Source of the DNA: a virus | DNA length: 38,084 bases | Virus record (IMG/VR): IMGVR_UViG_3300035661_000165 | Coordinates: 1-38,084 of that record | Direction: 5' to 3' (one strand) | Shown here: piece after piece, positions 8,094 through 34,119 of the stretch | How the letters are laid out: every line of letters begins with the position of its first letter | Numbering within the stretch: position 1 is the stretch's first letter | Notes under the pieces: model-generated | Databases searched by the model: none | Told to the model about the DNA's origin: nothing | The model's input: the letters and a program-made list of their open reading frames with translations, nothing else | Translations under genes and position numbers: made by a program

Positions 8094-9098
8094 TTATGCT
8101 GCCTCCACGAACTTGCCACTGTCATTCAGCTGATACCAAACCTCGGCTTTTAGCTTGCCGTCTGAGCCGTCTCCACAGCCTATTTCAGCACAGCGCATTT
8201 CATACCGTCTTTCCTCGTGGTTCCGCCAAACCAGAGCGATACATCCAAATTTGCCAGCCATAGCCTTTGAACTGACTCCGGTTGATACGGCGGCACTTGC
8301 GTTGCCTGTAGCCGATGATTCTGAACTATAACCTGTAGTCGATGATACTGAATTGTCCCCTGTAGCCGATGATTCTGAACTATCCCCTGTAGCTGAGGAT
8401 GCTGAACTATAACCTGTAGCTGAGGATGCAGACCTATAACCTGTAGTCGATGATACTGAATTGTCCCCTGTAGCTGAGGATGCTGAACTATAACCTGTAG
8501 CTAATGCTACGGACCTATCCCCTGTAGCTGAGGATGCTGAACTATAACCTGTAGCTGATGATGCTGAACTATAACCTGTAGTCGATGATACTGAATTGTC
8601 CCCTGTAGCCGATGATGCTGAACTATAACCTGTAGCTAATGCTACGGACCTATCCCCTGTGGCCGATGATGCTGAACTAGAACCTGTAGCTGAGGATGCA
8701 GACCCGGCCTCGGTAGCGTGGTTGGTTTCTTTGTATTTGTGGCTAAACATAAATTTTACGGCGGCCCCAATGAATTCGCGCAATGTCAAGGAAGGTCCGA
8801 TCTTGATCTCAGTACACGCAACTTTGCTATCGTCATCGTGTTTGTCAATTTGTCCGGTACACTCAACAGCATGGAACAGGCTGGTCACAGGACCGTAGTA
8901 ACTGAATACATCAAGCGGATTTTCGCAGAAGTGAAATCCGCTGTTGCACGCCTGGGCCTCGCCTTCGTGCTTGTAGGTTTTGCCCTCTTCGAATTGGAAT
9001 CCACGGCACTGCATGTTTTTGTCAAACCCCTTGAATCCGTGGATAACGGGAATATTCTCCTTTTTGGTCTTCGTTTTTGGCGGTTTGTAGGTTGTCAT
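8094..9098 (-). CDS. DUF7666-type protein with 9-residue repeats
   Basis: About 334 aa. The N-terminal domain (roughly residues 15-120) has the KGFDKNMQCRGFQFEEGKTY and CNSGFHFCENPLDVFSYY pattern of the phage DUF7666 family. The middle is sixteen tandem 9-residue units of the form ATGxxSxxS, ideal for a parallel beta-helix or stacked-strand rod. The C-terminus (about 60 residues) is a small domain with CIALVWR. The start at 9098 has AGGAGG upstream; the longer frame to 9191 overlaps the neighbour. Function unknown; the repeat region is prone to expansion and contraction. It lies in the early operon rather than among virion genes, so a tail role is unlikely. Confidence 0.8.
   Translation of the reverse strand: MTTYKPPKTKTKKENIPVIHGFKGFDKNMQCRGFQFEEGKTYKHEGEAQACNSGFHFCENPLDVFSYYGPVTSLFHAVECTGQIDKHDDDSKVACTEIKIGPSLTLREFIGAAVKFMFSHKYKETNHATEAGSASSATGSSSASSATGDRSVALATGYSSASSATGDNSVSSTTGYSSASSATGYSSASSATGDRSVALATGYSSASSATGDNSVSSTTGYRSASSATGYSSASSATGDSSESSATGDNSVSSTTGYSSESSATGNASAAVSTGVSSKAMAGKFGCIALVWRNHEERRYEMRCAEIGCGDGSDGKLKAEVWYQLNDSGKFVEAA
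8259..8690 (-). repeat. 27-bp minisatellite, 16 units
   Basis: Sixteen 27-bp tandem units encode ATG-x-x-S-x-x-S-type nonapeptides. Near-identical units recur in a higher-order pattern (DRSVAL, YSSASS, DNSVSS, YSSASS, YSSASS blocks), a sign of recent block duplication. A half unit extends to about 8705. Confidence 0.9.
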
Positions 9099-9145
9099 TT
9101 TCTTCCTCCTTGTTGGTCTGTGCAAAAATTGAGTATCGCTGATTG

Positions 9146-9385
9146 TCAGGGTAAAAAAACACGGTTCAGTTCCGACAATGGAACATACCAATACTTTCCT
9201 ACCCGTTTACCGAACAGTGCCGTTGCCATCTGTTCAGGTGGTATCTTGTCACCATGTATCCGTTTCAGCCGCTGCCCCCTCAGGCACATTCGGGCAATGT
9301 ACCGCGCCTCAGTGCCGGGGAATAGTCTTGCCGCTTCAACTGATGTCAAGCCCTGCACTGGCTGTGCTTGCTTCTCCTCGCTCAT
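9146..9385 (-). CDS. Small helix-turn-helix DNA-binding protein
   Basis: 79 aa. It has an N-terminal helix-turn-helix-like segment (SVEAARLFPGTEARYIARMC) and a C-terminal GKRVGKYWYVPLSELNR that resembles the wing of MerR/excisionase-type DNA-binding domains. The ATG at 9385 follows a near-perfect GGGAGGTGAT site. It could act as an early regulator of the operon; its target may be the 20-bp repeats at 9854-9906, but that link is only inference. It is not accompanied by an integrase, so a true excisionase role is unlikely. Confidence 0.6.
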   Translation of the reverse strand: MSEEKQAQPVQGLTSVEAARLFPGTEARYIARMCLRGQRLKRIHGDKIPPEQMATALFGKRVGKYWYVPLSELNRVFLP

Positions 9386-10774: not shown

Positions 10775-10936
10775 TCATACCTCGTCCCTCGGTTTAGTGT
10801 GGTTCGCAACGAGTTTTTCCAGCATCATGCGACATGTTTTCTGTGCCGATTTAAAGGCCCATATTCCGTAAGCGGTAAGCGCCAGGTCAATAATCAGCAG
10901 TCCTGCCAGGATGATCTCAATTGGACATCCGTTCAT
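10775..10936 (-). CDS. Small membrane protein, holin candidate
   Basis: 53 aa. One transmembrane helix at about residues 6-26 (EIILAGLLIIDLALTAYGIW), then a basic tail (KSAQKTCRMMLEKLV). It starts at 10936, overlapping the stop of the endolysin gene (TAATG) with GGAGG upstream, and its stop lies one base before the next gene's ATG. The tight coupling to the endolysin makes it a good holin candidate. Confidence 0.6.
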   Translation of the reverse strand: MNGCPIEIILAGLLIIDLALTAYGIWAFKSAQKTCRMMLEKLVANHTKPRDEV

Positions 10937-11343
10937 TATGCCGCCCTCCGGTAGCCCAGAACATCATCCCGTTTGTAGGCACTAATTTTCACCTGATCAG
11001 ATTGATTCCCGCCCAACACATAGACCAGACCATCTGCTGACTTAACAAAGAACCCAACATGGCCGGATGGTGGATTGCCACGCTTCAAGATAATCACATC
11101 ACCCTCTTGAGGCAGATCGACTTTGACACCCCATTGCAACCAGCTACGTGCAGCGGCTGACTTGGTACGCACTACCCCGGCCTGCATGTGGCACCAATTG
11201 ACAAACGAACTGCACCATGGGGTTTCGTCGTCTGTTGCATGAAGATCAACGGCTTGTTGGTATTCAACAATACGGGGATTGTTCTCTGCCCCTGCAATTT
11301 CCTTCTGCCCGACTTCGCCTTGTGCTATCTCGTATGGGGTCAT
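10936..11343 (-). CDS. Endolysin, NlpC/P60-like TIGR02594 family
   Basis: 135 aa from the ATG at 11343, preceded by AAGGAGG; the longer frame to 11415 has no ribosome site. The family pattern is clear: PWCSSFVNWC (C44), SGHVGFF (H95) and GGNQSDQV (N113) give a Cys-His-Asn triad of papain-like peptidoglycan hydrolases, and KSAAARSWLQWG is the usual connecting motif. No signal peptide is visible, so release depends on a holin. It is the first gene of the lysis cassette, directly after the giant virion protein. Confidence 0.85.
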   Translation of the reverse strand: MTPYEIAQGEVGQKEIAGAENNPRIVEYQQAVDLHATDDETPWCSSFVNWCHMQAGVVRTKSAAARSWLQWGVKVDLPQEGDVIILKRGNPPSGHVGFFVKSADGLVYVLGGNQSDQVKISAYKRDDVLGYRRAA

Positions 11344-11392
11344 GCGTACACCTCCTTTTTTGTTTGCTGAATAATCAGACAGCTTTGCTGTA

Positions 11393-14300
11393 TCATTTGA
11401 CACCAGCTTTTTCAAGTGCCATTTCCTTGAACACGCCCCGCTTGATATATCCCTCTACCGTTAATTGCTCTACTATCTTCTGGTATTCTGCTGCTGGCAT
11501 GGTCTTTTCATAGCTCTGAAGCAGGGCGGACTTTTCTTTGACTCCGGCTGCGTCAATAATAGCGTCGATCTTTGCATTGTTCTGTACCTTGCCTGCATAA
11601 CGGTCATACCGTGGCCTGAACTCGCTAAACTTTGTGTCATTATCAAGCTTCTTTTCGTCAATCAATTGGCGGTATAGCTTCACCTTGTCGCTTACTGTAG
11701 GCTGTCCATTCTGCTTGTCTATGTCCTCGATAATTGCCTCTCTTACGTCAAGGGACCGCCGCGCTTCCTTCTCTGCTACCTGCTGAGTCACGTCACGTAA
11801 TTGCTCCCGTTCACCCTGGTCAGATACCTTCAGGAAGCGTCCAAGCACGTTGGCACCCGGATACTTCAGCACCTTTTCAAACTCACTCTGCACCTTTTCG
11901 GGGCCGTCACCAGAAAACTGGTAAATGGAGCTACCACCCAGGCTATTTGACATATGCTTGCCAAACTCAAGCCATTTCCGGTGGTCGTTTGCCTTGAAGA
12001 TCTGATCAGGTATGACAAGCTTTCCCCTGTAGTCGTCATAAGGGTTGAGACCCCGCATTATCTGCACAATGTCGGTTGCAGCGGATAGATACGGATTCAG
12101 GCTGTATGGTGATTGCTCGGACGCATACGACAATACGCTCTTGCTTCCGGTAATATTGCCCTGCATAGCGTTCCATAGCACGCCCCCTACCATGGTTCCG
12201 GTGTAGTCCTGCGGCACCCTGAAATAAACACCCTTGCCCTTACTGTCAAAGCCAAGCGGTATTACGTTGTAGTTGGTTTTGTCATAGTTACTGGCACTGT
12301 CCATAATCTTCTTGATTCCAGATCCAAACGCCCCGGCTGCTGCCGCCGCCATCATCAACTTGGGGATGATATTGTAAGCTGCTGTCTTCCAGGCATATTC
12401 AGCCTTGCTTTCTTTGGCAGATTCCCACGATGAACGCCAGCCCTCTTTTGCCACGTTAGAAAATAGGAATATGTTGTTTGTGATTGCGTGCAGTCTGCCT
12501 GTCCGGTGAACGTCAGGAGTACCCACGCGAGAACGGACCATATGCCCGGTCTTCTCCGGGGTCATATCGGTATTCTCTGTAATGTACTTGTGGCCGGCCA
12601 GCTTGCCGATCCGTTCCGTGAACTTACCCATGTTACCAAGTGCGTCCCACAACATCATAAACGGCTTGATAACCTTGTTGCGGTACTGAACTTGTGACTT
12701 GCCAAACTGTTGCAGCATCCTGTCAAGCTCATTATCCGGTGATTCATCAATGTTGGTAAACTGGCGATCCGTAACAAGCATCTTGTTCTTAAACATGCCC
12801 TGAATTTCGGGACTCATTTTCCCGTTGAATACGTCCGCCCATGCTTCCGGTGCTGCTTTGCCGTAATACTTCAGCAGTGTGAAAATTGAAAGCCCTGGTG
12901 TATTCTTCCACGTTTCTATGAAGTCGCGGGGTACGTTAGCAACCATCCACAAGGGATTGTGATTGACCAGCACGGCACGTAACGGAATGTTCATTATCTG
13001 CCACGCCTTAAGTATCGCGCTGGCTTCGTAAGGACTATGTGCAAAGGTTTCAGCTATTCCTTTTGGGACATACAGTGCCTGCACCTCTCCCTTGTGCGGA
13101 AACATGATCATACCCTGATCAGGATCAGAAGGCTCAACCGGTTCATGCGTCTTGCCGTTCCAGCGGGTATCCGCTGAACGTATCTCGTCCGGGAAGTGCT
13201 CTTTCAAAAAGTCCGTAACTTTCTGCTTCACAATCTTGACATTCGCTGCCCTGATCAAAGCAGCATCCTTCATCACGGTTGCAATGAAAGGGTTGCGTAT
13301 TTCCTGAAGAGTACCAACCTGCTTGAAAATCTGAGCCGACACGCTCCGGCCGTACTTGGCTTCAATGAACTTCTGAACCTCCCATGTTGCATAATCGGTG
13401 TTATCCCGGACATGTTGCATTAAGTCGTCCGGCCACATTTCGGCCTGATCAACAACGTCAATCACGTTACGCTCACGAATGCCCTTGTACTTCTCCACGT
13501 AATCAGCAAGGGCTTGCCACTTCTCCGGGCCAAGTTGTTGCTCAAGATGCTTCAAACCTGCTGCTGCTGTCTCTGCGGTATGTCCAAGAGGGTTGGCCAA
13601 TTCTGCGCGGTCACTGGTGATGCGCTTCAATAGCATGTACTCGCCCAGGTCATCAATTGTCAGGCCATCCAGCTTCATAGGCTCAAGCATCAGGCTGTCA
13701 ATTTCGTGCAAGTGACTGTAGACCTCGCCCGAAATATAGGGCAGGGTTTCCACCCAGTAGGCCGGATTGTCTGCATCCTCAACAATCTTGCCGGACTTCT
13801 TGACAGCCTTAACCTTCAGGTTAATATCCGCATTCTTATCAATCAGGTCTTTGTAGAGTGAGTGCATGATATCTGCCAGGGGCTTGCGCTCGGATTCCTT
13901 CTTGATCGCTTCCCCACGGTCAAACATGCTGCGGATATTCTCTTGACGATGCTGCATGATCTCGTCTGAGTTGTTCAGCCTCTGTTGAATGTCGTAGTAG
14001 ACTTTAGACACTTCCGGCTTGCGGTTCAGGTATGACATGAACGCCTTTTCAAAGGTGGGGGCAATCTTCCGGACCATGGCAGGGTCGTTCAGCAGTGCGC
14101 TGAAAGCATCAGCATAAAGCTCTGCTGACGAAAAACGATAGGCAGTGTATCCAGGATCATTCCCCGGCTGGAACGGTTTCCAGTGTAGGGTTAAGTCTTT
14201 CAGCTCTTGGCTGATCGTTTCCAGCTTGTAAAGGTTGCGCTTGCTGATCTCCTCTTGCACCAGTTCTGCATATCGCTTGCTGATCTCCTCAGGGGTTGCG

Positions 14301-17300
14301 TGAATGCCCGGAATAGTCCGGCTGACTTCTTCTGTAACGGTTCTGGTCCCAACCTGGACACGTTCCCCCATATGCGAAAGCCGATCATGCACAAGCCCAT
14401 TCATGGCCTGAACCAGTACCGCTTTTTTCTCGCTGTCACTCATTTCCGCAAGAGCGCGGTAGAGCTTCGGGTATTTTTCCCGCGCCGTTGTGTCGTTCCA
14501 TATCGCCTTGATCATTTCTGGATCAATGCCAGTATACTTCCATTGTGGCACTTCGCGGGTAATTGTTTCGATTACGGTTTCATCTGGTCGCTCATTTGCC
14601 TTCAGTTCCCTTTCGGCTTCACTGCGTAGCCTTGCTCTGTCCTTTTTGGAAAGTGTCGCACCAGGAGCACCTTCGTATTCTGCCAGCAAGCTACCCATGT
14701 ACTTCTTCAATGAGGCAATACGACCGAGGATATTACCGCGCTTGATATCATGGTCCGGTAGCCAGTCAACCAGGTGGCCTATCTCATGAGCAAGGACACG
14801 TTCAAGCAGACCTGGAGTCTTGGCAAGGTCGGCTCTCAGGTCAATGCTGCCTGTGCCGGTCTTGAATACACCAAGGGCGCCACGCTTATTCAGCTTGCGG
14901 AGAATATGCGGATACTTCCCCCCCATCAGGTTCTTTGCAATTTCGACTATCTCTGGGAGTTGTAAGGCTGAAACCTTCTGCTGTGCAAAAGGCGCATTTT
15001 GGGGACCGGGAGGATTAAGGTTGTAACCGCCGGTATCGGCGTGATCCTTAGAGGGAGTTACTCTCTTACTTTGAACGACACTATCGGGCCGTGTGCCGCC
15101 GTGAACCGTTTCAATGATTCCACGAGGTCTTTCTCCCCTTTGATGTGGTGGATTCCTGGTTCCATCAAGGACTTGCTGCTCACGGCTTGCTGTGAGCTTT
15201 GCGTCTGCCGCATCAAAGTTTGTGTCGATTCCATAATCAAGCCTCCATCCTGTATAGCTTAAGCTTGCTCCATCTTTTGAGATAACGTCAATCACTTTCT
15301 TACTGACAGCATCAGACAACTTTGTAATCTGGGTTTCAGCTATTGCCATATTATCAAAGATTGTAGCAAACTCGTCGCCGCCCTTACGGAATATCTTGAT
15401 ACCGAGTGGTTCCGCTGCGTCGGCAATAATCCGAAGCAATGCGTCACCAGCCACATGACCAAAGTTGTCATTGATCCACTTCAGGCCGGACACGTCCATT
15501 GACACTACGGCACTACCAGCAGGCATGTTCTTGACTGCCATGCTCCAGCCTGCCGCATTGTATGTGTTGGTCAGCGAATCATGAAATATCATCTTCGTCA
15601 GGCCGTCAACGTCATTGCGCTGCACCATGTCCGCAACGGTTGTGCGCATGTCAGTTTCTGATTTGCTGATATGGTTTTGACCAGTTTCCGCTTTGATGTC
15701 ATACCCGCCGGTATCGGCGAAGATGTTGCCGCCCCCTGACTTCTCAACGCCCTTTGGCACAAGGTAAATTTGAGGCTGTTTGTTCTCAAGATACCCCGGC
15801 GAAAGCCTGATCGTGTCACCAGGCTTCAGTATGGTATTACCGGAAGGCAAGTCCCCGTACTGGTCAATGTTCAGCACTTCAGGCCGGATGTTGTACGTCC
15901 GTCTGCCAACCTTAAACTGTAGCATCATGGCATGGTCAGGGGTTTCCTGCACAACTTGGAAAACGGGATTTTTGGCAAACTCCTTGTCACCAGAATAAAG
16001 CCGCTTCAGCATGGCGCGGCCTTCGCTTACAACACGGTCACGCGGGTATCCTGTTCCAAGAAGTTCCGCGCTTGTATCTGCTGCCGCCTGCGTCTTATCG
16101 GCAAGCTTAAAGCGTCCGATCAATTCACCCGGGACAACCTCACCGTTCTCGTTACGTGTGTCAGGTGTCCGTACCTCAATAGTATCTTTGCGGATCTTGA
16201 CAGAAGAAATAGCCGGGTCCTCAAGTGCCTTCTGTAACGATGTCTCATGTTTTGCGCTGTCGTATGTTGTGCTATAATCGCCATAGGTCAGCTTGCCATC
16301 ACGAAAAGCCTGAAATACATCAGCAGGAGTTTTCAGCGTTTTGGGGTCAACTGACGGCTTCAAACTCATTGCCTGATATTCAGCAGGTTGATTCTGTGTA
16401 TCTGGCTGACTGTCTGCCGTCTCTGGCTGGTTTTCTGGACGCAGTGAAGGGGTTTGTTCAGGTTGAGAGACAAAAGGCTTCACAGGGGCCGTCTGTGCGT
16501 TTACAGGTGCCGCCATTTCTGACGGCACCGTTCCTGTTTGTGCGCTTGGTACATCTGATACTTTTTGCAGAGGATCTGAATCGTCGGGCGCTACTAACAG
16601 CCCTTGCTCCCCTGCTTGCCCCCCTTGGGTGCTGTTGGTTTCTTGGTTCCCTTTGCCATTTGAGATCACCTCGCTTTGAATTGGAGTATCAGGGACGAAT
16701 CCCTGTGGTAGATTGACAGGTTGATTAACTGCCGACGAGTTGTATTCTGGCAACATGTCCGACGGGCCGCTCGTCGCGGGGGTAGCCTCTAATTGAGCAA
16801 TTATAGCCGGGTCGGTGACAGGTTTTGCTCCACTGGAAACCGGCATTTCTGGTGCAACCTGATTGTTTGCTGCGTTTGCTTCCGTAGCCGGCGTTTCAGT
16901 TGTAACGGATTTGGTGACAACTGGTTTTGCAGTCGGGGCTTCAGCCGCGCGATTATTCTGTACAGCTGGATCGTAAACAGCCGGTACGTTGGCCCCGTTA
17001 GGCTGAATCCCTGCGGTAGTATCTGAATCAGCAGGGGTTGCCCCCTTCCGATTACGCTCCCAAAGCATATTAAAATAGTCTTTGTTTGCTCTGGCTGCTT
17101 GGCCTTCTGTCATTTTCCCGGCTGCAACCTGCTCTGCATAAGCTGCCGCATTATTGCGAAGGTCCACGTTAATTGCATCACGTTCAGCTGCTGAAAGACC
17201 CTTAAACCAGCGTGCAACGTCTGGGGCTTCCATAGCCGACGATATTGTCCCAGCGAATAACGATCCAGCAATGGAACTGCTAACTGCATCCTCCCCGGCG

Positions 17301-17824
17301 TTCTGTGCAGCTACACCGCTGACAATACCGCCCGTTGCCGCTTGAGTTGCTACCCTGCCGACACGGGTCAAGTTGTCCAGACCGGTTGCAAGCTGCACCC
17401 CTTTGCTTGCTGCTGACCACGGGGCGACCACTCCGCCAAAGTTACCGGCAAAGTCGGTAATCGGGTTAGGGGTAAGCCCCACGTTTGGCATTTCCTTACG
17501 GGCCTTGTCGGTCAACGACTTGGTAAGCCCAAGGGTCGCGCCATCAGCAACCCCCATTGAACCGCTCACCAGTGCACCAGCTGCAACTCCAGGAGCGTCC
17601 TTCAATGCGCTTGGGTCAAACCTGTTGGCTTCATCATCAGCGTAATAGTCAGTAGTAAGATCCCGCTTGACTGCATCAAAGGCTTTACGAAGCAAGTTCT
17701 TCTTGGGCGCATCCCCTTCCAGCCGTGCAATCAAGTCCGGGTCAGTAACTGGTTGGCCCGGTGCGGAAACCGTCCTACCTTCCAGCCGTGCCAAGAGTGT
17801 CGGATCAGTAACTGGCTGGTTCAT
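11393..17824 (-). CDS. Giant ejection (polyvalent) protein with GGDEF and zincin domains
   Basis: 2143 aa from ATG 17824 (ATGA overlap with the gene upstream). The N-terminus carries the motif PVTDPxLIARLEG twice near residues 4-36 and once more near 345. A Gly/Ala-rich hydrophobic region follows (about 60-190), then a P/Q/T-rich disordered stretch (about 280-500). Residues 749 to about 905 are a GGDEF domain: DSLTN, VSMDVSGLKWINDNFGHVAGD, and the exact GGDEF signature at 815-819; no RxxD inhibitory site is visible. A HEIGHLVDW zincin motif lies at 1013-1017, with AELYADAF downstream as possible third ligand. The C-terminal half contains an NPLWMVANVPRDF region (about 1620) like the LPD38 polyvalent-protein domain, and an alanine-rich hydrophobic helix near 1825. 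Size, position and domain mix indicate a protein packaged in the virion and injected with the DNA. Confidence 0.85.
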   Translation of the reverse strand: MNQPVTDPTLLARLEGRTVSAPGQPVTDPDLIARLEGDAPKKNLLRKAFDAVKRDLTTDYYADDEANRFDPSALKDAPGVAAGALVSGSMGVADGATLGLTKSLTDKARKEMPNVGLTPNPITDFAGNFGGVVAPWSAASKGVQLATGLDNLTRVGRVATQAATGGIVSGVAAQNAGEDAVSSSIAGSLFAGTISSAMEAPDVARWFKGLSAAERDAINVDLRNNAAAYAEQVAAGKMTEGQAARANKDYFNMLWERNRKGATPADSDTTAGIQPNGANVPAVYDPAVQNNRAAEAPTAKPVVTKSVTTETPATEANAANNQVAPEMPVSSGAKPVTDPAIIAQLEATPATSGPSDMLPEYNSSAVNQPVNLPQGFVPDTPIQSEVISNGKGNQETNSTQGGQAGEQGLLVAPDDSDPLQKVSDVPSAQTGTVPSEMAAPVNAQTAPVKPFVSQPEQTPSLRPENQPETADSQPDTQNQPAEYQAMSLKPSVDPKTLKTPADVFQAFRDGKLTYGDYSTTYDSAKHETSLQKALEDPAISSVKIRKDTIEVRTPDTRNENGEVVPGELIGRFKLADKTQAAADTSAELLGTGYPRDRVVSEGRAMLKRLYSGDKEFAKNPVFQVVQETPDHAMMLQFKVGRRTYNIRPEVLNIDQYGDLPSGNTILKPGDTIRLSPGYLENKQPQIYLVPKGVEKSGGGNIFADTGGYDIKAETGQNHISKSETDMRTTVADMVQRNDVDGLTKMIFHDSLTNTYNAAGWSMAVKNMPAGSAVVSMDVSGLKWINDNFGHVAGDALLRIIADAAEPLGIKIFRKGGDEFATIFDNMAIAETQITKLSDAVSKKVIDVISKDGASLSYTGWRLDYGIDTNFDAADAKLTASREQQVLDGTRNPPHQRGERPRGIIETVHGGTRPDSVVQSKRVTPSKDHADTGGYNLNPPGPQNAPFAQQKVSALQLPEIVEIAKNLMGGKYPHILRKLNKRGALGVFKTGTGSIDLRADLAKTPGLLERVLAHEIGHLVDWLPDHDIKRGNILGRIASLKKYMGSLLAEYEGAPGATLSKKDRARLRSEAERELKANERPDETVIETITREVPQWKYTGIDPEMIKAIWNDTTAREKYPKLYRALAEMSDSEKKAVLVQAMNGLVHDRLSHMGERVQVGTRTVTEEVSRTIPGIHATPEEISKRYAELVQEEISKRNLYKLETISQELKDLTLHWKPFQPGNDPGYTAYRFSSAELYADAFSALLNDPAMVRKIAPTFEKAFMSYLNRKPEVSKVYYDIQQRLNNSDEIMQHRQENIRSMFDRGEAIKKESERKPLADIMHSLYKDLIDKNADINLKVKAVKKSGKIVEDADNPAYWVETLPYISGEVYSHLHEIDSLMLEPMKLDGLTIDDLGEYMLLKRITSDRAELANPLGHTAETAAAGLKHLEQQLGPEKWQALADYVEKYKGIRERNVIDVVDQAEMWPDDLMQHVRDNTDYATWEVQKFIEAKYGRSVSAQIFKQVGTLQEIRNPFIATVMKDAALIRAANVKIVKQKVTDFLKEHFPDEIRSADTRWNGKTHEPVEPSDPDQGMIMFPHKGEVQALYVPKGIAETFAHSPYEASAILKAWQIMNIPLRAVLVNHNPLWMVANVPRDFIETWKNTPGLSIFTLLKYYGKAAPEAWADVFNGKMSPEIQGMFKNKMLVTDRQFTNIDESPDNELDRMLQQFGKSQVQYRNKVIKPFMMLWDALGNMGKFTERIGKLAGHKYITENTDMTPEKTGHMVRSRVGTPDVHRTGRLHAITNNIFLFSNVAKEGWRSSWESAKESKAEYAWKTAAYNIIPKLMMAAAAAGAFGSGIKKIMDSASNYDKTNYNVIPLGFDSKGKGVYFRVPQDYTGTMVGGVLWNAMQGNITGSKSVLSYASEQSPYSLNPYLSAATDIVQIMRGLNPYDDYRGKLVIPDQIFKANDHRKWLEFGKHMSNSLGGSSIYQFSGDGPEKVQSEFEKVLKYPGANVLGRFLKVSDQGEREQLRDVTQQVAEKEARRSLDVREAIIEDIDKQNGQPTVSDKVKLYRQLIDEKKLDNDTKFSEFRPRYDRYAGKVQNNAKIDAIIDAAGVKEKSALLQSYEKTMPAAEYQKIVEQLTVEGYIKRGVFKEMALEKAGVK

Positions 17825-18909
17825 TCTTGATACCACTTTCCATCTTTGGCCTTGTAATACTGCACTCCATCAAGGGTCTTTTTTGGGCCTGCTGGTGCAG
17901 CTGACAACAGCATATGCTTGGAAGCATCACCCTGAATTGGCTTCGGCTGCGCCAGTGCAGACTCGTCTCCAAAATAGGTTGCATACTGATCAGGAAATTT
18001 TGACTGCATCAGTCGCTTTGTGTTCTCCACCTCTGGTAGCAAACCAGATAGAGCTGCATCAATATTGGCCTGTGGTATTGTTCCGCCTGTGTATGGGTCA
18101 ATGCCCTTCTGGATGCTGGCAATTCTGCCACGCAATGACTGCAATTTACCCGCCCACTGCATGAAAGCCTTGTCGTCAGAACCCCCGCTACCGACTGGCC
18201 TTGGGTGAAGTTCTGCCGGGGTAGGTGCATTCTGGGCCATGATCTCGCCATCATCACCTAGATAACTGTAACCGGTCGAAGAATCAGGGTCCCTTACAAG
18301 ATGACCGGTAACTTTATTTACATTCACGTCCTTGGTTTCGTATCTGGAATATGGGGCAAAGTTTTGATCGAAAAGTGCCTTTATGGTTGCTTGGTTCAGT
18401 GTTCCATTTTGTTTTGCTTCATTAAGTTCCTCAAAGTGTTTTGGATTAAGATACCCGCGTGTCGTATAACCATCATCTCCCTTGACTTCAATATCCTTCC
18501 AGCCATCTTTATCATTGCCAGCAAATTGTATCTTGTCGGCTAGCTCTGGTTGAGATTGCGCAAGCAGCTGGTTAGCTGCCTTATAATCTGTTCTAGAAAG
18601 ATCTATTGCCATTGCAAGTTTTTTTGCTTGCTGATCCTGTATATCCTTCTGACGCTGGTAATCCATTACGCCTTGAACTTGCTGGTTTTCCTCAATCGCC
18701 TTCTGTTCATCAAAAGCTTTGGCGTTGGCAGTGTCAACCCCCATCTGATACATGAGTGGTATTTTACCCAAACCTTCAAGGCCGGTAACACCTCCATCTT
18801 TCGGCATCTGGTTCATAACCGCTTGGGTGCTGGTAAGGTCTCTATCGTATGGGTTCTTCTGTGTCTTTAGCAGGGAGGCATATCCTCCGATTCCTGTAAG
18901 TTCGCCCAT
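17821..18909 (-). CDS. Probable internal virion / ejection protein
   Basis: 362 aa, unrecognised by motif. It has a Gly-rich start (MGELTGIGGYASLL), a Gln/Lys-rich helical segment (about residues 70-110, coiled-coil-like) and a Pro-rich middle, and it ends in a short YYKAKDGKWYQE element reminiscent of cell-wall or linker tails. It lies between two other presumed internal proteins and overlaps the giant ejection protein by ATGA, the usual place for T7 gp14/15/16-like proteins. AGGAG precedes the ATG at 18909. Function is inferred from position. Confidence 0.7.
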   Translation of the reverse strand: MGELTGIGGYASLLKTQKNPYDRDLTSTQAVMNQMPKDGGVTGLEGLGKIPLMYQMGVDTANAKAFDEQKAIEENQQVQGVMDYQRQKDIQDQQAKKLAMAIDLSRTDYKAANQLLAQSQPELADKIQFAGNDKDGWKDIEVKGDDGYTTRGYLNPKHFEELNEAKQNGTLNQATIKALFDQNFAPYSRYETKDVNVNKVTGHLVRDPDSSTGYSYLGDDGEIMAQNAPTPAELHPRPVGSGGSDDKAFMQWAGKLQSLRGRIASIQKGIDPYTGGTIPQANIDAALSGLLPEVENTKRLMQSKFPDQYATYFGDESALAQPKPIQGDASKHMLLSAAPAGPKKTLDGVQYYKAKDGKWYQE

Positions 18910-18924
18910 GATTATGATCTCCTA

Positions 18925-19818
18925 TCAATATCCTGCGTTAGGACTTTTTTTGCCGGTAAAGGTGTTTCCACCAGACTTAAACGCTCCGTTGCCGTACAGA
19001 TACATCAAGCCCCCGGCCATGTTTGAACCGGCACTGGCATAAGAGGCGCTCCGGGCCTGCTCTGCTTTCCACTTGTCCATGATGCTGTTGTTCCGCATAT
19101 TGTTGTCTGCAAGCACGCCTGAATAGGACTGGTTAGCGGCATCAGTCATATTTTTTGTTATTTGGGATTGTGCAAGCGCGTCCGATCTTGCGCCGCTATC
19201 AATCTGTTGCAGCATATTAGACCAATAATTGCGGTCATTGTCAGCAAGCTGATTTTTTGCCATAACTGCCTGATCCGCAATGTTCGCATCCTGGGTAAGC
19301 TTGTCTTTTGCAAGTTCATTCTGGGTATCAACATAGGCGCGACTTCCGAACATGCCCCGCGCGTTTGCTTGTTCGTCATTGGTGCGGCTAAGTTCTGCAA
19401 AGCGCGGGTCAATATCTTTGTGTGCAGCGTCAGAATATGATTGTGCATACTCTTCATATGCCTTAACCCGATCTTCAGGAGTTGTGTTCAGATTGTCCAG
19501 CATCTTGGTGCGTAGTTCAGCAAGCTTGGCCTTTTCAGCCTTCTGCTCTTCTGTCAGCTCCCGCCCCTTTGTGACCCATGTATTCGTTGCTGCGTCATAG
19601 GTCTGCGAACTGATTACACCACCATCATCATCATACTGCACTGAATTAGGAGGTGGGGGCGGCTTTTGTACTTCTGGTGCACCGGGGGCTGTTGCCATGC
19701 CGTAAGCCGTCAATCCTACACTGACTAACGAAACCGCGGCCATGACTATTCCGCAAAATTGCGGCGGGTGATTATACCTGTGTAATAATTTTTCGGTCGT
19801 ATTCCAAGGACGCATCAT
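18925..19818 (-). CDS. Probable internal virion protein, T7 gp14-like position
   Basis: 297 aa. A hydrophobic segment near residues 24-45 (GIVMAAVSLVSVGLTAYGMA) is followed by PPPPP, then a long helical Ala/Gln/Asp-rich body (RDAL-type heptads), and a Gly-rich C-terminus with GGLMYLYGNG. This layout is common for the smallest ejection protein of podoviruses, which lodges in the host envelope. The start at 19818 is favoured by AAGGAG 7 bases upstream, which lies inside the end of the radical SAM gene. A start at the internal MAAVSL is possible but has a weaker site. Confidence 0.7.
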   Translation of the reverse strand: MMRPWNTTEKLLHRYNHPPQFCGIVMAAVSLVSVGLTAYGMATAPGAPEVQKPPPPPNSVQYDDDGGVISSQTYDAATNTWVTKGRELTEEQKAEKAKLAELRTKMLDNLNTTPEDRVKAYEEYAQSYSDAAHKDIDPRFAELSRTNDEQANARGMFGSRAYVDTQNELAKDKLTQDANIADQAVMAKNQLADNDRNYWSNMLQQIDSGARSDALAQSQITKNMTDAANQSYSGVLADNNMRNNSIMDKWKAEQARSASYASAGSNMAGGLMYLYGNGAFKSGGNTFTGKKSPNAGY

Positions 19819-19820
19819 TT

Positions 19821-20852
19821 TTATTCTCCTTGTATTTGAAAGCCGTTATACCAGCCTCTGTCTATACCTTCTGAAACTATCTGAGCAACCGGAACAGAAT
19901 AGCATTTACCATCTTTTGCGAGTTGCAGAGTTGGCCTACTGCATGACATTAGATCAATATTTTCTACTGTTGGTGCCGAACTGAGCGAAATGCCGCAATA
20001 TTTATCGCGCATGTAAATGCTGTAGATGTTTGACGTTTCCGGATATGATGACGCTGTAGGTATTAAATCTCCGAACTCGGCAAGGAATTCCTTATAGAGA
20101 TCAGAAAGCCATATCTTATCTTTAGCGTTTTTGTTCTGCCAGTTTCCGTACATGGTCCTAATGCGCATGTGATTGTATAGGCGCTTCGTATCGTCGTAAA
20201 AAGTTCTGATCCATTTCAGTTCATCTAAGCTTGAAATACTGAATTGGATGCAATTAGCTTTTAGCTCGTTACGCTCAAGATTTACCAGTGTTCCGACTTT
20301 CTTTTTGTAAATATCTTCTGAATAGTTCTTCGGGTGTTGCATAGATAATGACGCATGCAATGTTTTTGACTGGTCGCAGTATCCAGCATCAAGCACGCTT
20401 GCGAAAAAATCTGGGTCTGACAAAGTGAGCATGTTGGTCATAAGGAACAGCTGCCAGTTCTTTTCCCGTAATTCTTTGGTGAATGATAAAAAATCGGGCC
20501 TTATTGTAGGCTCTCCACCGGATAGTAACAGGCTGTATCCTCTGACTTTCATGTCAAGCAATGTACGGTCGAAATGTCTAGCGCTTTTAAGGTCCTGACC
20601 TGTCATGGGGTAGTAGCACCATGCACATTTCATGTTGCAGCTGTCAGTAATGGGTACAAGGATGCTCTTATTGTGTCCAGCCGTTCCCGTGTTGTAGAAC
20701 GTATTCAGTATAGTCGCGTCTTTCTCTACCATTGCGACAAACTTGCCGTGAGCAGGGCATTCTTTGTGCATCCACGCCGAACCGTCATGTACGACAATTT
20801 CAGCAGGTATTTTCATATAACATTTAGGACATATACTCAGAGTGTTGATCAT
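19821..20852 (-). CDS. Radical SAM enzyme with rubredoxin-like N-terminal site
   Basis: 343 aa from ATG 20852, which has AAAGG upstream. The N-terminus has CPKC (C8, C11) and CPAHG (C32, H35), a small metal site like that at the start of COG1964-type radical SAM proteins such as archaeal MJ0619. The radical SAM core follows: CNMKCAWC (C72, C76, C79) for the 4Fe-4S cluster, LLSGGEP (111-115) for SAM binding, and a TNM strand. Three late cysteines (DKYCG, MSCSR, GKCYS) may hold an auxiliary cluster, though not in SPASM order. It makes a 5'-deoxyadenosyl radical to modify a target. It lies between a hydrolase gene and ejection-protein genes, so a virion protein or a peptide is a possible substrate; that is inference. 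Confidence 0.85.
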   Translation of the reverse strand: MINTLSICPKCYMKIPAEIVVHDGSAWMHKECPAHGKFVAMVEKDATILNTFYNTGTAGHNKSILVPITDSCNMKCAWCYYPMTGQDLKSARHFDRTLLDMKVRGYSLLLSGGEPTIRPDFLSFTKELREKNWQLFLMTNMLTLSDPDFFASVLDAGYCDQSKTLHASLSMQHPKNYSEDIYKKKVGTLVNLERNELKANCIQFSISSLDELKWIRTFYDDTKRLYNHMRIRTMYGNWQNKNAKDKIWLSDLYKEFLAEFGDLIPTASSYPETSNIYSIYMRDKYCGISLSSAPTVENIDLMSCSRPTLQLAKDGKCYSVPVAQIVSEGIDRGWYNGFQIQGE

Positions 20853-20883
20853 TGTTAACCTTTCCGTATGCTTAATATAGCCT

Positions 20884-21315
20884 TCATATTGCAATTCTCC
20901 AAAGGTCTTCAGGGGTAATCCTTCGCATTGCTTCCGGCCTGAAAAGCGGCTGACGGGCTTGCTGGAAAGCCCAGGCTACCAGCTCAGAGCAAAACCATTT
21001 ATCTTCCGCTTGCCAGTCTCGGCGCAATATGAATCCTACCAATGCGAACCAGTCGTATTTTTTGCCAATTTGTGACGATGCAGCGGCAATGACTGCTTCA
21101 GGATCATGGCAATGGACTCGTACCATCTCATAGTCTGCATCTGCGGCAAGGGCTTCGGCGTATAGCGTTCTGATTACACCGTGCAGAGCATGGGCCTGAA
21201 TAATTGTATCACCATCGACAATACTGACGTGTGACCATCGGGACCAAGTAAGTGCCCTAATTAGCCAGCTAAACGGGCTATGTGATGTACTGAACAGTAG
21301 GGCAACGGTATCCAT
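20884..21315 (-). CDS. Permuted papain-fold hydrolase (YiiX/YebB-like)
   Basis: 143 aa from ATG 21315. The circularly permuted NlpC/P60 pattern is visible: WSHVSIVDG with H29 early, then YDWFALVGF and DKWFCSELVAWAF with C109. Such small hydrolases act on amide or ester bonds of cell-wall or lipid substrates and occur in phage tail modules. The longer frame up to 21462 overlaps the neighbour and lacks a ribosome site. It starts 2 bases after the stop of the fibre-assembly gene. It may aid local wall opening during infection, or pair with the radical SAM enzyme encoded next to it. Confidence 0.75.
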   Translation of the reverse strand: MDTVALLFSTSHSPFSWLIRALTWSRWSHVSIVDGDTIIQAHALHGVIRTLYAEALAADADYEMVRVHCHDPEAVIAAASSQIGKKYDWFALVGFILRRDWQAEDKWFCSELVAWAFQQARQPLFRPEAMRRITPEDLWRIAI

Positions 21316-26399: not shown

Positions 26400-27383
26400 T
26401 TACCCTTTCAGTGCGGTTTCAAGGCGAAGCATGAAAGCATCCTGAAGGATTACGCTTGCGGTGTAGCCCTTCCAGCCGACGGAACCGCGTTGTGCCAGTT
26501 CGTCGCCGGTAATGGATTTGGGGTTGTTGACAAAGGTTGACACGGCATTTTTGCCAGCTAGGGCAACTGTACCGTAAGCATCGGCCCCGAAGATCAGCAG
26601 CGGGTAAACGTCGCTGTTGGTGCCGGAGGTTGACAAGGTGCCGTTGGTGGATGCGGTAGTACCGGCATCAGCCCAAGGCACACAGTTGTTGTCAAATACG
26701 ACACGAAGCTCACCAACCGAACCGGCCTCACCTTCAATCAGGCCCATGGCAGAAGCATACTGTTGCACTGGCTTCCAATCGCTCAACCGTTCAAAATCAG
26801 GTTGTGCATCAGAGTGGCACACCAGAACAAACGCCTTTGGAATCGGGAAAGTACCGATGTTAGGCCCCGCCTTGATGATGTTGGTAATAGGCTTCGCAAG
26901 TTGCTTCTTGAGGATACGAACAGCAGTACGCAGCTGGTCCCGTGTGAACACGTTGTTGACGGTGGAACGGCTGGTTCCGTTGGCATACAGAACGTTAGTT
27001 CCGGCCTTCAGTACGCCGAAGCGCAGCACGTCCCAGGTTTCACCGGCCTGCTCACCAAGGATCTCTTGCGATTCCTGCAAGACAGGATCGGTATGGGTAT
27101 CAAGAACAACGTCAGTAATGGTGATAAAATCCCCGTACTGCTGGATAGTTACCGAGATGTCAGTTTTGGTCAGGGTCTTACCGGTAGGGGTAACGCCCTC
27201 AGCCAATGGGACAGTTGCAGAAGGCAACCGGTTATAGCGCCGGAAAATGCTGGTCTTGGTGGACTTGGTAGGCAGAGTTTTATTCTGCCCGAACTGGCCG
27301 AGAATGTTGTTCTGTTGCGCCCTTTTCAGCAGTGCGCGGTCAACATATGCCTGTGTTGCCGGGGAAATGTCGTTGTAAGTCAT
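26400..27383 (-). CDS. Major capsid protein, N4-gp56 family
   Basis: 327 aa. It has the N4-gp56-type pattern: an N-terminal helix (SPATQAYVDRALLKRA), QNKTLPTKSTKTSIFRRYNRLP, PLAEGVTPTGKTLTKTDISVTIQQYGDFITITDVVLDTHTDPVL, then helices with LKKQLAKPITNI, and a C-terminal GSVGWKGYTASVILQDAFMLRLETAL. This is an HK97-fold shell protein. Gene order (scaffold upstream, decoration-type protein downstream) agrees. Notably the phage lacks other N4 hallmarks such as virion RNA polymerase. Confidence 0.92.
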   Translation of the reverse strand: MTYNDISPATQAYVDRALLKRAQQNNILGQFGQNKTLPTKSTKTSIFRRYNRLPSATVPLAEGVTPTGKTLTKTDISVTIQQYGDFITITDVVLDTHTDPVLQESQEILGEQAGETWDVLRFGVLKAGTNVLYANGTSRSTVNNVFTRDQLRTAVRILKKQLAKPITNIIKAGPNIGTFPIPKAFVLVCHSDAQPDFERLSDWKPVQQYASAMGLIEGEAGSVGELRVVFDNNCVPWADAGTTASTNGTLSTSGTNSDVYPLLIFGADAYGTVALAGKNAVSTFVNNPKSITGDELAQRGSVGWKGYTASVILQDAFMLRLETALKG

Positions 27384-31874: not shown

Positions 31875-32083
31875 TACTCGTCAACCTCTTGTGCTTCCTC
31901 TGCCTCGATCTGGTCAAGCAGGGATACAACATCATCAATTGCCAGTAAGCGGCCCTGTAGCCTTCCGATCTTGATTGTGTCGGATTCCGCCTTTACGCAT
32001 TCAGCGGCCTCCTTGCCAAGTTCTTTGACTCTCGCTATGAACTGCTGAAAATCCCCTGACTGTCTTAGTAGCTGCGTATTCAT
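31874..32083 (-). CDS. Small helical protein next to portal
   Basis: 69 aa, almost entirely helical (VKELGKEAAECVKAES...LLAIDDVVSLLDQIEAEEAQEVDE) with an acidic C-terminus. It overlaps the end of the portal gene by ATGA. It could be a small portal-associated or assembly factor; no family is recognised. Confidence 0.65.
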   Translation of the reverse strand: MNTQLLRQSGDFQQFIARVKELGKEAAECVKAESDTIKIGRLQGRLLAIDDVVSLLDQIEAEEAQEVDE

Positions 32084-34119
32084 GCCATGGCCCCCTGTGC
32101 AGGCGTTCCGGCCATTATACCTGAACCTTGTTGCATCACCCCAGGCGCGGCCCCGGCATCTACCGAGGAGGGAGCGGCTTCCGATGTAGAGGCAGCACCG
32201 GGGGCGACTTGTGGGGTAATGCCTGACCGTTCGGGGTCTGGCTGAATACCCATTTCAAGCAATAACTGAGCCTGTTCTTTTCCTGAAAGTAGGCCGAATA
32301 TGGCATCTATCCTGATCAGCTCACGCAGGTCTTTGCCTTGACCGGCCTGCTTCGCTGCTTCTTCGATGATCTGCTGTATCTGATCGTCTGAGCGCATAAC
32401 TTCCGGTATCTCAAGGATGTTGAAAACTTCCTTCCAGAATTTTGCATCATCAATGAACAGTGCGGCCGGTTGACCATTCGTAACCTGCTTGGCCTTCAGC
32501 AGATTCTCTAACTTCATTTCTTTTGCCATCAGCGAATCAGCACCGGTAGCCTTGATCTTGAGCGGGATCTTATTGCTGTGGTCCCCGTCCATTTCCATGA
32601 ACCACTGATAGAAACTCTCAACCAGCTTCTCAATCCAGAAATCGTCAATATTCTGCATGACGCTCTTCAGGTTGACGTTTGAGGCCGTCATAAGCATAGA
32701 CATTCCAGAGGCGGTCTTGTTAAGGAATGAACCACTATCTCCGGTTGTGTACTTTGGAATGCCGGTTTCTTCATCAGAGAAACGTTCAAACAGTTCGATC
32801 AAATCACTCAAACCGCTTGTAATGTCGTTGAATGTAATCTGTCCTAACGCCTCATTGATGTTGGTCCCATCTTTGAAATAAATGGTCTTGCCGGGGTAGA
32901 TGTCGGCTGTGCCGGTACGCTTCCAGTCGATCTTGTTCCAGACCATCCCGATAATGCCGTTGCCTGACAGTGCCTTGTTGTCGATCAACATGCGGGTTGC
33001 ACTGTTAATCATCTTCTGACTGTCGCGCATCAGACCGGCCACGCCTTCGCCATAAATCTGGTGCGGTATCTTTTTGTAAGGGCAGACGTAGAACGGGCGG
33101 AATCCAAGCGGGTTCAAACATGCCTTGATAATGATTCCATCAGCGGCTAGAACAATCAGGCTTTCAATTGAATCGTCTTCGTCAAGGTCTTCAGGAACAT
33201 CGGTTAGGCCAAACGACCGCAACATACCCGCCGGGACCAGTCCCCAATACTCAAGCACAGGAATCTTTTTGTCCTTGATTCCATGCTCACCCATCCAGTT
33301 ATCACCCATCATATCGCGCCGCTTGTCGTTGGGATCAACGGCTGATGCTCTGAGTTTGGCGGTCTTTACGGCTGCGCGGTTGTAACCGCCGCACTTTGCC
33401 AACTTCATGAACTGCGCTGGCAACATGCGCTGGAAGTGAATCTCTGCAATGCTATCAGCCGTGTTCTTGGCGTTTGCGTCAACATAATATTCCCAGAGTG
33501 GGATATGATCGACCACCGGGACCGGTTCTGTTTGCGCGTCCATCTGCCATGGGTTCATACCCTGGTCAAGCTCGTTAACCGGTATGCCGGCAACGGTACG
33601 CTTGGTGATTACTGTCTTGCTACGCTCTTCGATAATCGGTCCTTTGAGTACGGATGTGCCAAGTATCGCAAGCTCCAACACCCCGCCATTGATCTTGTCG
33701 GGCAAGTTGATCAGCTTGAAGTGGTCCTCAAGCTTCTGTTTGAATGCCTGTACCATCTTGGCCGCTGAATCTGGATCAATTCCTGACTCTTCAGTGGAAA
33801 CCGCTTCAACATCAAAGGGCAAGTTTGTACGGCCGGACAGAAATGAGTCAACAATGCGTGAATGTGCGGTATTGCATTTCAGGGTGGTAAGCTTGACGAA
33901 TATCCTTGAGCGCCTGCCGTTGCCCTCGTTCTTGCGCCACTTGGTATGTTCCTGATACTGCCCCAGGTAGTTTAATTGACATTCGCGCCACTTCTCTTCA
34001 AATGGCGCACGCGAAGTTTTGAACGACTCAAAGATGTCAAGAACATGTCTGGAAATCTCACCATTATCGTTCAGACCACCGTCCGGATTGTATGTCGCGT
34101 TCAAATTCAGGTTTGCCAT
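32080..34119 (-). CDS. Portal protein
   Basis: 679 aa, in the range of large podovirus portals. The N-terminus (DIFESFKTSRAPFEEKWRECQLNYLGQY...) is the helical clip/stem entry. The central part has WEYYVDANAKNTADSIAEIHFQRMLP and KMINSATRMLIDNKALSGNGIIGM, typical of P22/N4-like portals. The C-terminus is Ala/Pro/Gly-rich and probably disordered. It forms the dodecameric ring through which DNA is packaged. Its start overlaps the stop of the large terminase (TAATG), as is usual. Confidence 0.85.
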   Translation of the reverse strand: MANLNLNATYNPDGGLNDNGEISRHVLDIFESFKTSRAPFEEKWRECQLNYLGQYQEHTKWRKNEGNGRRSRIFVKLTTLKCNTAHSRIVDSFLSGRTNLPFDVEAVSTEESGIDPDSAAKMVQAFKQKLEDHFKLINLPDKINGGVLELAILGTSVLKGPIIEERSKTVITKRTVAGIPVNELDQGMNPWQMDAQTEPVPVVDHIPLWEYYVDANAKNTADSIAEIHFQRMLPAQFMKLAKCGGYNRAAVKTAKLRASAVDPNDKRRDMMGDNWMGEHGIKDKKIPVLEYWGLVPAGMLRSFGLTDVPEDLDEDDSIESLIVLAADGIIIKACLNPLGFRPFYVCPYKKIPHQIYGEGVAGLMRDSQKMINSATRMLIDNKALSGNGIIGMVWNKIDWKRTGTADIYPGKTIYFKDGTNINEALGQITFNDITSGLSDLIELFERFSDEETGIPKYTTGDSGSFLNKTASGMSMLMTASNVNLKSVMQNIDDFWIEKLVESFYQWFMEMDGDHSNKIPLKIKATGADSLMAKEMKLENLLKAKQVTNGQPAALFIDDAKFWKEVFNILEIPEVMRSDDQIQQIIEEAAKQAGQGKDLRELIRIDAIFGLLSGKEQAQLLLEMGIQPDPERSGITPQVAPGAASTSEAAPSSVDAGAAPGVMQQGSGIMAGTPAQGAMA

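Follow-up and report, generated by a model that had tools for sequence, protein, structure and literature searches.

Giant phage proteins that join unrelated domains, and for which injection into the host has been proposed, were described as polyvalent proteins by Iyer et al. 2017 (PMC5512222). GGDEF is named there among their domains as "not very widespread", with the Acetonema longum prophage protein WP_004096050.1 as an example, and is proposed to interfere with host nucleotide responses or to act against rival elements. In the cultured phages among the matches listed in our searches, the domain is mostly encoded by a gene of its own, in YuA-like phages of Pseudomonas and Bordetella, and no giant protein bearing GGDEF appeared among these records. 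These genes (MP1412 gp43, YuA gp44 and those of Bordetella phages CN1, CN2, FP1 and MW2) encode single-domain proteins of ~150-190 aa and lie in early or accessory regions beside a KlcA-type gene; in MP1412 (L003:6016-6977) the GGDEF gene is followed by one annotated as anti-restriction protein KlcA. In a search of the open-access literature, no paper came to light in which a phage-ejected diguanylate cyclase had been tested.

The window analysed here, a stretch of 38,084 nucleotides (IMG/VR virus record IMGVR_UViG_3300035661_000165), encodes a GGDEF domain within a giant protein that resembles several described systems in part. With the polyvalent proteins of Iyer et al. 2017 it shares the giant size, apparently the combination of several unrelated domains, a GGDEF domain accompanied by a zincin-like motif, the proposed injection and the function suggested for it. 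Its architecture is different, with an N-terminal region, an exchangeable slot, the ADTGGY junction and, followed by a C-terminal half of its own, an HExxH module. The domain has the same compact form as the YuA-like stand-alone proteins and falls in the same tree branch, through the 175-aa example L040, but sits in a giant protein. Cellular diguanylate cyclases (PleD, WspR, DgcR, SiaD, DosC) share its fold, metal site, guanine-recognition residues, GGDEF signature and stalk helix, whereas the window domain has neither RxxD site nor sensor domain, carries Arg for Lys, has a shorter loop and belongs to a phage branch. The gene lies between tail and lysin genes, as do those of T7-type internal core/ejection proteins, and the two genes preceding it likely encode internal virion proteins; the likeness is positional only, and no sequence match to the T7 gp14-16 families was found. 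A sequence-only reading of the window had proposed that the phage, if it injects the protein, would deliver a synthase of c-di-GMP or a related cyclic dinucleotide. Since GGDEF cargo was predicted in Iyer et al. 2017, this hypothesis had already been made.

The giant gene among virion genes

The giant gene, a candidate for a polyvalent ejection protein, spans positions 11393-17836 on the minus strand and encodes 2147 aa counted from a GTG at 17836; an alternative ATG at 17824, four codons on, gives 2143 aa. Family matches place terminase, portal, capsid, tail and lysin genes on the same strand, among them an SU10-type portal or head-tail connector (32080-34119, minus strand), the major capsid protein (26400-27383, minus strand) and, downstream of the giant gene, a CHAP/NlpC-P60 lysin (10936-11415, minus strand). 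Two proteins with no family match precede it and are, by position, a putative internal virion or ejection protein of 362 aa (17821-18909, minus strand) and a putative internal virion protein of 297 aa (18925-19818, minus strand). A giant phage protein as carrier of the domain, as first read from the letters, is thus found among virion genes, and a gene in this late virion block is probably made late.

The 88 proteins encoded beside related giant genes gave PHROG matches that include internal virion, DNA ejection, tail fibre and endolysin families, each matched by one to three of the 88. The giant protein itself had no internal-virion match in PHROG, where its matches are GGDEF-containing families of function not known, and a Pfam scan recognised no second family besides GGDEF. 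Gene position, together with the neighbours of related giant genes, supports ejection of the giant protein without proving it.

Several further features of the region were observed. A radical SAM protein with an HMPTM-type N-terminal zinc ribbon (PF23545, PF04055) is encoded among the tail and ejection genes (19821-20894, minus strand) and is also kept, at ~82% DNA identity, in the close relative L002 described below; a DUF7666 (PF24703) protein at 8094-9191 (minus strand) strongly matches the unnamed phage family phrog_4433. Short direct peptide repeats, two to four in number, often open giant phage proteins (first 80 residues), as in L011, L012, L014, L018, L020, L021 and L068; they read QPVTDPTL/QPVTDPDL in the window (17700-17830), GEDPWAGF in L021, PFADLxPP in L014 and NPFSIF in L068. 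A repeat score of at least 30 was reached by 13 of 43 giant-protein N-termini, against 3 of 258 internal stretches and none of 43 shuffles, and the repeats are possibly a packaging or docking motif. Relatives matching the C-terminal half of the giant protein occur in other phages. Those at 41-44% identity lie on contigs in Desulfuromonadaceae/Geobacteraceae bins, a weak hint to the host, because a phage contig can land in the wrong bin.

Fold and catalytic residues of the GGDEF domain

The motifs recognised in the sequence-only reading are all where it placed them: counted from the GTG, HDSLTN begins at residue 752, MDVSGLKWIND at 780 and GGDEF occupies 819-823, which corresponds to 815-819 when counting from the ATG of the 2143-aa form. 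The span first assigned, 15200-15590, does contain the signature but clips the domain, whose modelled fold with the preceding stalk helix (residues ~736-910) extends over 15107-15631 (minus strand). The Pfam profile PF00990 matched the whole giant protein with E 2.2e-7 (31.2 bits, over the curated cut-off of 23.8 bits), the isolated domain with E 4.6e-9 (36.7 bits) and, in a search of this one genome, with E 1.1e-10. Because the Pfam alignment ends after the first 100 of the profile's 161 positions, the presence of the second half was checked separately. The PDB sequence matches of the window domain are all GGDEF proteins, and a profile from an alignment of 41 related viral domains (A4) covers nearly the full domain of solved diguanylate cyclases (TpbB 7a7e, 1e-20; DosC, 1.6e-20; PleD, 2.9e-17).

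With the same alignment as input, AlphaFold2 modelled the domain with a mean pLDDT of 95.2 and a pTM of 0.88, as a palm fold with the signature on a hairpin, a stalk helix in front, and C-terminal strands and helix. The best Foldseek matches among those listed are GGDEF proteins, and in VIA-align 2 the model scores Z 14-17 against many solved GGDEF domains, the best being DgcR (6zxb; Z 16.8, 2.1 Å over 150 residues), with Z 15.4 for PleD carrying GTP-alpha-S (2v0n). A chance motif or degenerate fragment is ruled out by the Pfam, profile and fold results; profile match and predicted palm fold alike agree with the original identification, and by sequence and model the GGDEF domain of the giant protein is true and complete.

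Four elements of the predicted active site are present. Asp781 (15494-15496, minus strand), the predicted metal-site aspartate, is Asp in 57 of 58 aligned rows, and Asp798 (15443-15445, minus strand), predicted to recognise guanine, is Asp in 54 and Asn in 4. The search patterns for the loci did not contain these two positions; they did contain the Asn and the GDEF stretch, so the counts for Asn789 (15470-15472, minus strand; a second predicted guanine-recognition residue, Asn in 58 of 58) and for the signature (15368-15382, minus strand; G, D and E in 57, 57 and 56 of 58) are partly ascertained. We take the equivalents in PleD to be D327 for Asp781, N335 for Asn789 and D344 for Asp798, and the lysine contacting the GTP phosphates to be K442. 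The catalytic residues are kept across viral domains that are only ~20-37% identical to that of the window. The claim that the domain carries the residues of active cyclases therefore holds for these positions, though not throughout: Arg885 stands at the K442 position, which is Lys in 52 of 58 rows, and the loop before the last helix is shorter, with a GGDEF-to-AD spacing of 58, where bacterial domains have a median of 64. For the second phosphate-contacting Arg, in the last helix, the alignment of the window domain is uncertain.

In cGAMP-making Hypr GGDEF domains a Ser replaces the guanine-contact Asp. This Ser is absent from the window domain, which has Asp798 at that position, and the retention of Asn and Asp at the base-recognition positions would point to GTP and c-di-GMP rather than to a cGAMP-type product. 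The commonest signature in giant-protein GGDEF domains is SGDEF (17 of 38 scored); since SGDEF enzymes such as ECA3270 and MbaA can be active (PMC3974145, PMC8079147), this form, by analogy, can count for the cyclase reading.

The inhibitory RxxD site, in register when R stands at -9 and D at -6 from the signature, had been noted as not visible, and this is confirmed: the stretch leading up to the window GGDEF, EPLGIKIFRK, has neither R at -9 nor D at -6. No in-register RxxD occurs in the 38 GGDEF domains from ORFs of at least 900 aa, against 5 of 8 in smaller viral ORFs; the stand-alone L040 has none either. The site is present in 53 of 59 bacterial GGDEF domains from four genomes, a sample biased to the best-scoring domains, and its published frequency is 44-57% (PMC3974145). 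RxxD is a common but not a defining feature of active diguanylate cyclases, and the window domain is without it.

The phage branch and the exchangeable slot

A survey gathered 57 viral loci with related domains, 58 with the window, and 45 of the 58 domains sit in ORFs of at least 1000 aa. In a tree of 83 domains, 39 giant-protein rows, one stand-alone YuA-like row and one 637-aa row group together with a branch support of 99/92; across that branch lie six other small viral rows and all 36 bacterial rows, the latter a small sample biased to high scorers. L065 and L054 were flagged as a possible long-branch join, and the end branch of the window is itself long (2.31), so that its exact place in the tree is unsure. 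Recent capture from a host finds no support, the nearest rows being other phage giant proteins, with the bacterial rows on the far side of the 99/92 branch.

A close relative of the giant gene is found on a contig represented twice among the loci (L002 and L066). By blastn its giant gene is 88.9% identical in DNA to that of the window over 11375-15043 and 85-87% identical in the N-terminal pieces, but blastn finds no DNA counterpart in it to 15044-16346 (minus strand), where protein alignment shows a different GGDEF-type domain with a diverged GGDEG signature (RQGGDEGSIL). This domain scores 21.8 bits in Pfam, just below the 23.8 cut-off, and comparison of its profile with that of the window type covers the whole domain with 98% probability and E 1.7e-13. 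No direct relative of the window protein bearing the same GGDEF domain was found, L002, at ~89% in the flank, having the other type. In L067-L077, which are more distantly related to the giant protein, the HExxH module and the C-terminal half are retained beside a different centre without a recognisable GGDEF signature, and in this lineage the domain is therefore dispensable. From these alignments the central region is an exchangeable cargo slot, as in the modular exchange of polyvalent proteins. Residues ~497-735 (14050-16350), which precede the GGDEF module and form part of the segment absent from L002, matched no relative or family.

The boundary of the swap coincides with the peptide ADTGGY. 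One copy (residues 933-938; 15023-15040, minus strand), just after the GGDEF module, is conserved in the lineage, in which [DE]TGG[YF] stands 82-84 residues ahead of HExxH; a second (residues 707-712; 15701-15718, minus strand) lies just before the module, which is thereby placed between two copies. The pattern [DE]TGG[YF] was absent from the other ORFs of at least 700 aa among the fetched loci (110 ORFs, 214,936 residues), and the expected number of exact DTGGY matches in a protein of this composition is 0.0014. The two copies in the window have 15 identical bases, but synonymous codons vary between relatives, which rejects a DNA recombination site and suggests that the peptide rather than the DNA is kept. 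We infer that ADTGGY is a module junction, possibly also a processing site. A coherent phage branch in which the I-site is lost clade-wide, the GGDEF/GGDEG exchange in one slot and the ADTGGY junctions were not found described in the available part of Iyer et al. 2017 (PMC5512222) or in the other sources searched.

Beyond the second copy, the putative zincin-like metallopeptidase motif HEIGH (residues 1017-1021; 14774-14788, minus strand) is invariant in the aligned lineage, as is a downstream Glu (SxELxAD). Structure prediction gave no confirmation of a zincin fold; the AlphaFold2 model of the region is poor (pLDDT 61), and the metallopeptidase is for that reason left as a motif-level call.

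A proposed working and its alternatives

We read the giant protein, with moderate confidence, as a polyvalent protein of the ejection type that holds in its exchangeable slot a compact diguanylate cyclase of the phage branch, which would make c-di-GMP after injection. Several copies would be packed in the virion and enter the cell alongside the DNA, and their GGDEF domains would pair through the stalk helix, each binding GTP at Asp781, Asn789, Asp798 and the GGDEF signature, so that the pair makes c-di-GMP. The GGDEF domain may be released through cleavage of the chain by the metallopeptidase-like module beside it, perhaps at the ADTGGY junctions. With the RxxD site absent there would be no product shut-off, so that a small number of molecules could drive c-di-GMP up soon after infection begins. 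For a few dimers with a turnover of the order of 0.1-1 per second in a cell of 1 fL, a rough estimate gives a rise of the order of 0.1 µM per minute, which would count in cells whose resting level lies below that. The raised c-di-GMP could tip the host into a condition favourable to the phage, or upset nucleotide-based defence.

A GGDEF fold is by itself no proof of cyclase activity, and the domain might no longer make a signal, serving instead as a GTP- or c-di-GMP-binding module or as structural filler. Degenerate GGDEF domains that serve as receptors are common in cells (PMC3974145), the close relative has GGDEG in the same slot, and Arg885 and the shortened C-terminal loop, along with the long branch, suggest that the window copy could have drifted from activity. 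Every catalytic and guanine-recognition position examined is nevertheless unaltered in the window and conserved across the branch, the complete fold is modelled at high confidence, and the missing RxxD, the usual receptor site, speaks against an I-site receptor; we regard an inactive domain as unlikely.

The time of action bears on the proposal as well. With the gene probably made late, the enzyme may also act, or stay silent, in the producing cell, and one could suppose that late or prophage expression lets it work there or in a lysogen rather than on entry. An integrase-like gene lies near the giant gene in L002 (15513-16775, minus strand), so that part of the lineage may be temperate, and Bordetella strains lysogenic for phage LK3, whose genome includes a stand-alone phage GGDEF gene, form biofilm in excess, though this is a correlation only (PMC8471281). 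On the other hand, a signal meant for lysogens would be strangely placed in a huge virion-block gene when stand-alone genes are there to carry it, and the window genes covered by the scan include no recognised integrase, all of which makes such a role quite unlikely.

Instead of motility or biofilm, the signal could be aimed at nucleotide-based immunity (CBASS, Panoptes, type III CRISPR); the product might be c-di-GMP or a related cyclic dinucleotide, and the swaps of GGDEF type would be the trace of an arms race. Iyer et al. 2017 (PMC5512222) point to the host's nucleotide responses as something such proteins could interfere with, and there are cyclic-dinucleotide defences that react to the nucleotide sponges of phages (PMC12657218). 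The stand-alone branch member of MP1412 adjoins a KlcA-type anti-restriction gene, and two near-identical phages hold different GGDEF types in one slot. Cassette swapping alone, however, cannot identify a target, and Asn789 and Asp798, with no Hypr Ser, indicate plain GTP use; an immunity target we judge improbable.

Returning to the preferred reading of an injected cyclase, a wider conjecture, doubtful on present evidence, is that a feedback-free phage GGDEF branch spread as swappable injected cargo, its types exchanged since hosts and defences answer to the nucleotide made, with the burst on entry acting as a counter-defence or takeover signal. The clade-wide lack of the I-site would yield compact cyclases without product inhibition at that site. 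Since cultured YuA-like phages of laboratory Pseudomonas strains carry stand-alone members of the branch, the 2017 prediction would become directly testable. If active and injected, the domain would constitute a virion-delivered second-messenger enzyme that sets host c-di-GMP before any phage gene is expressed.
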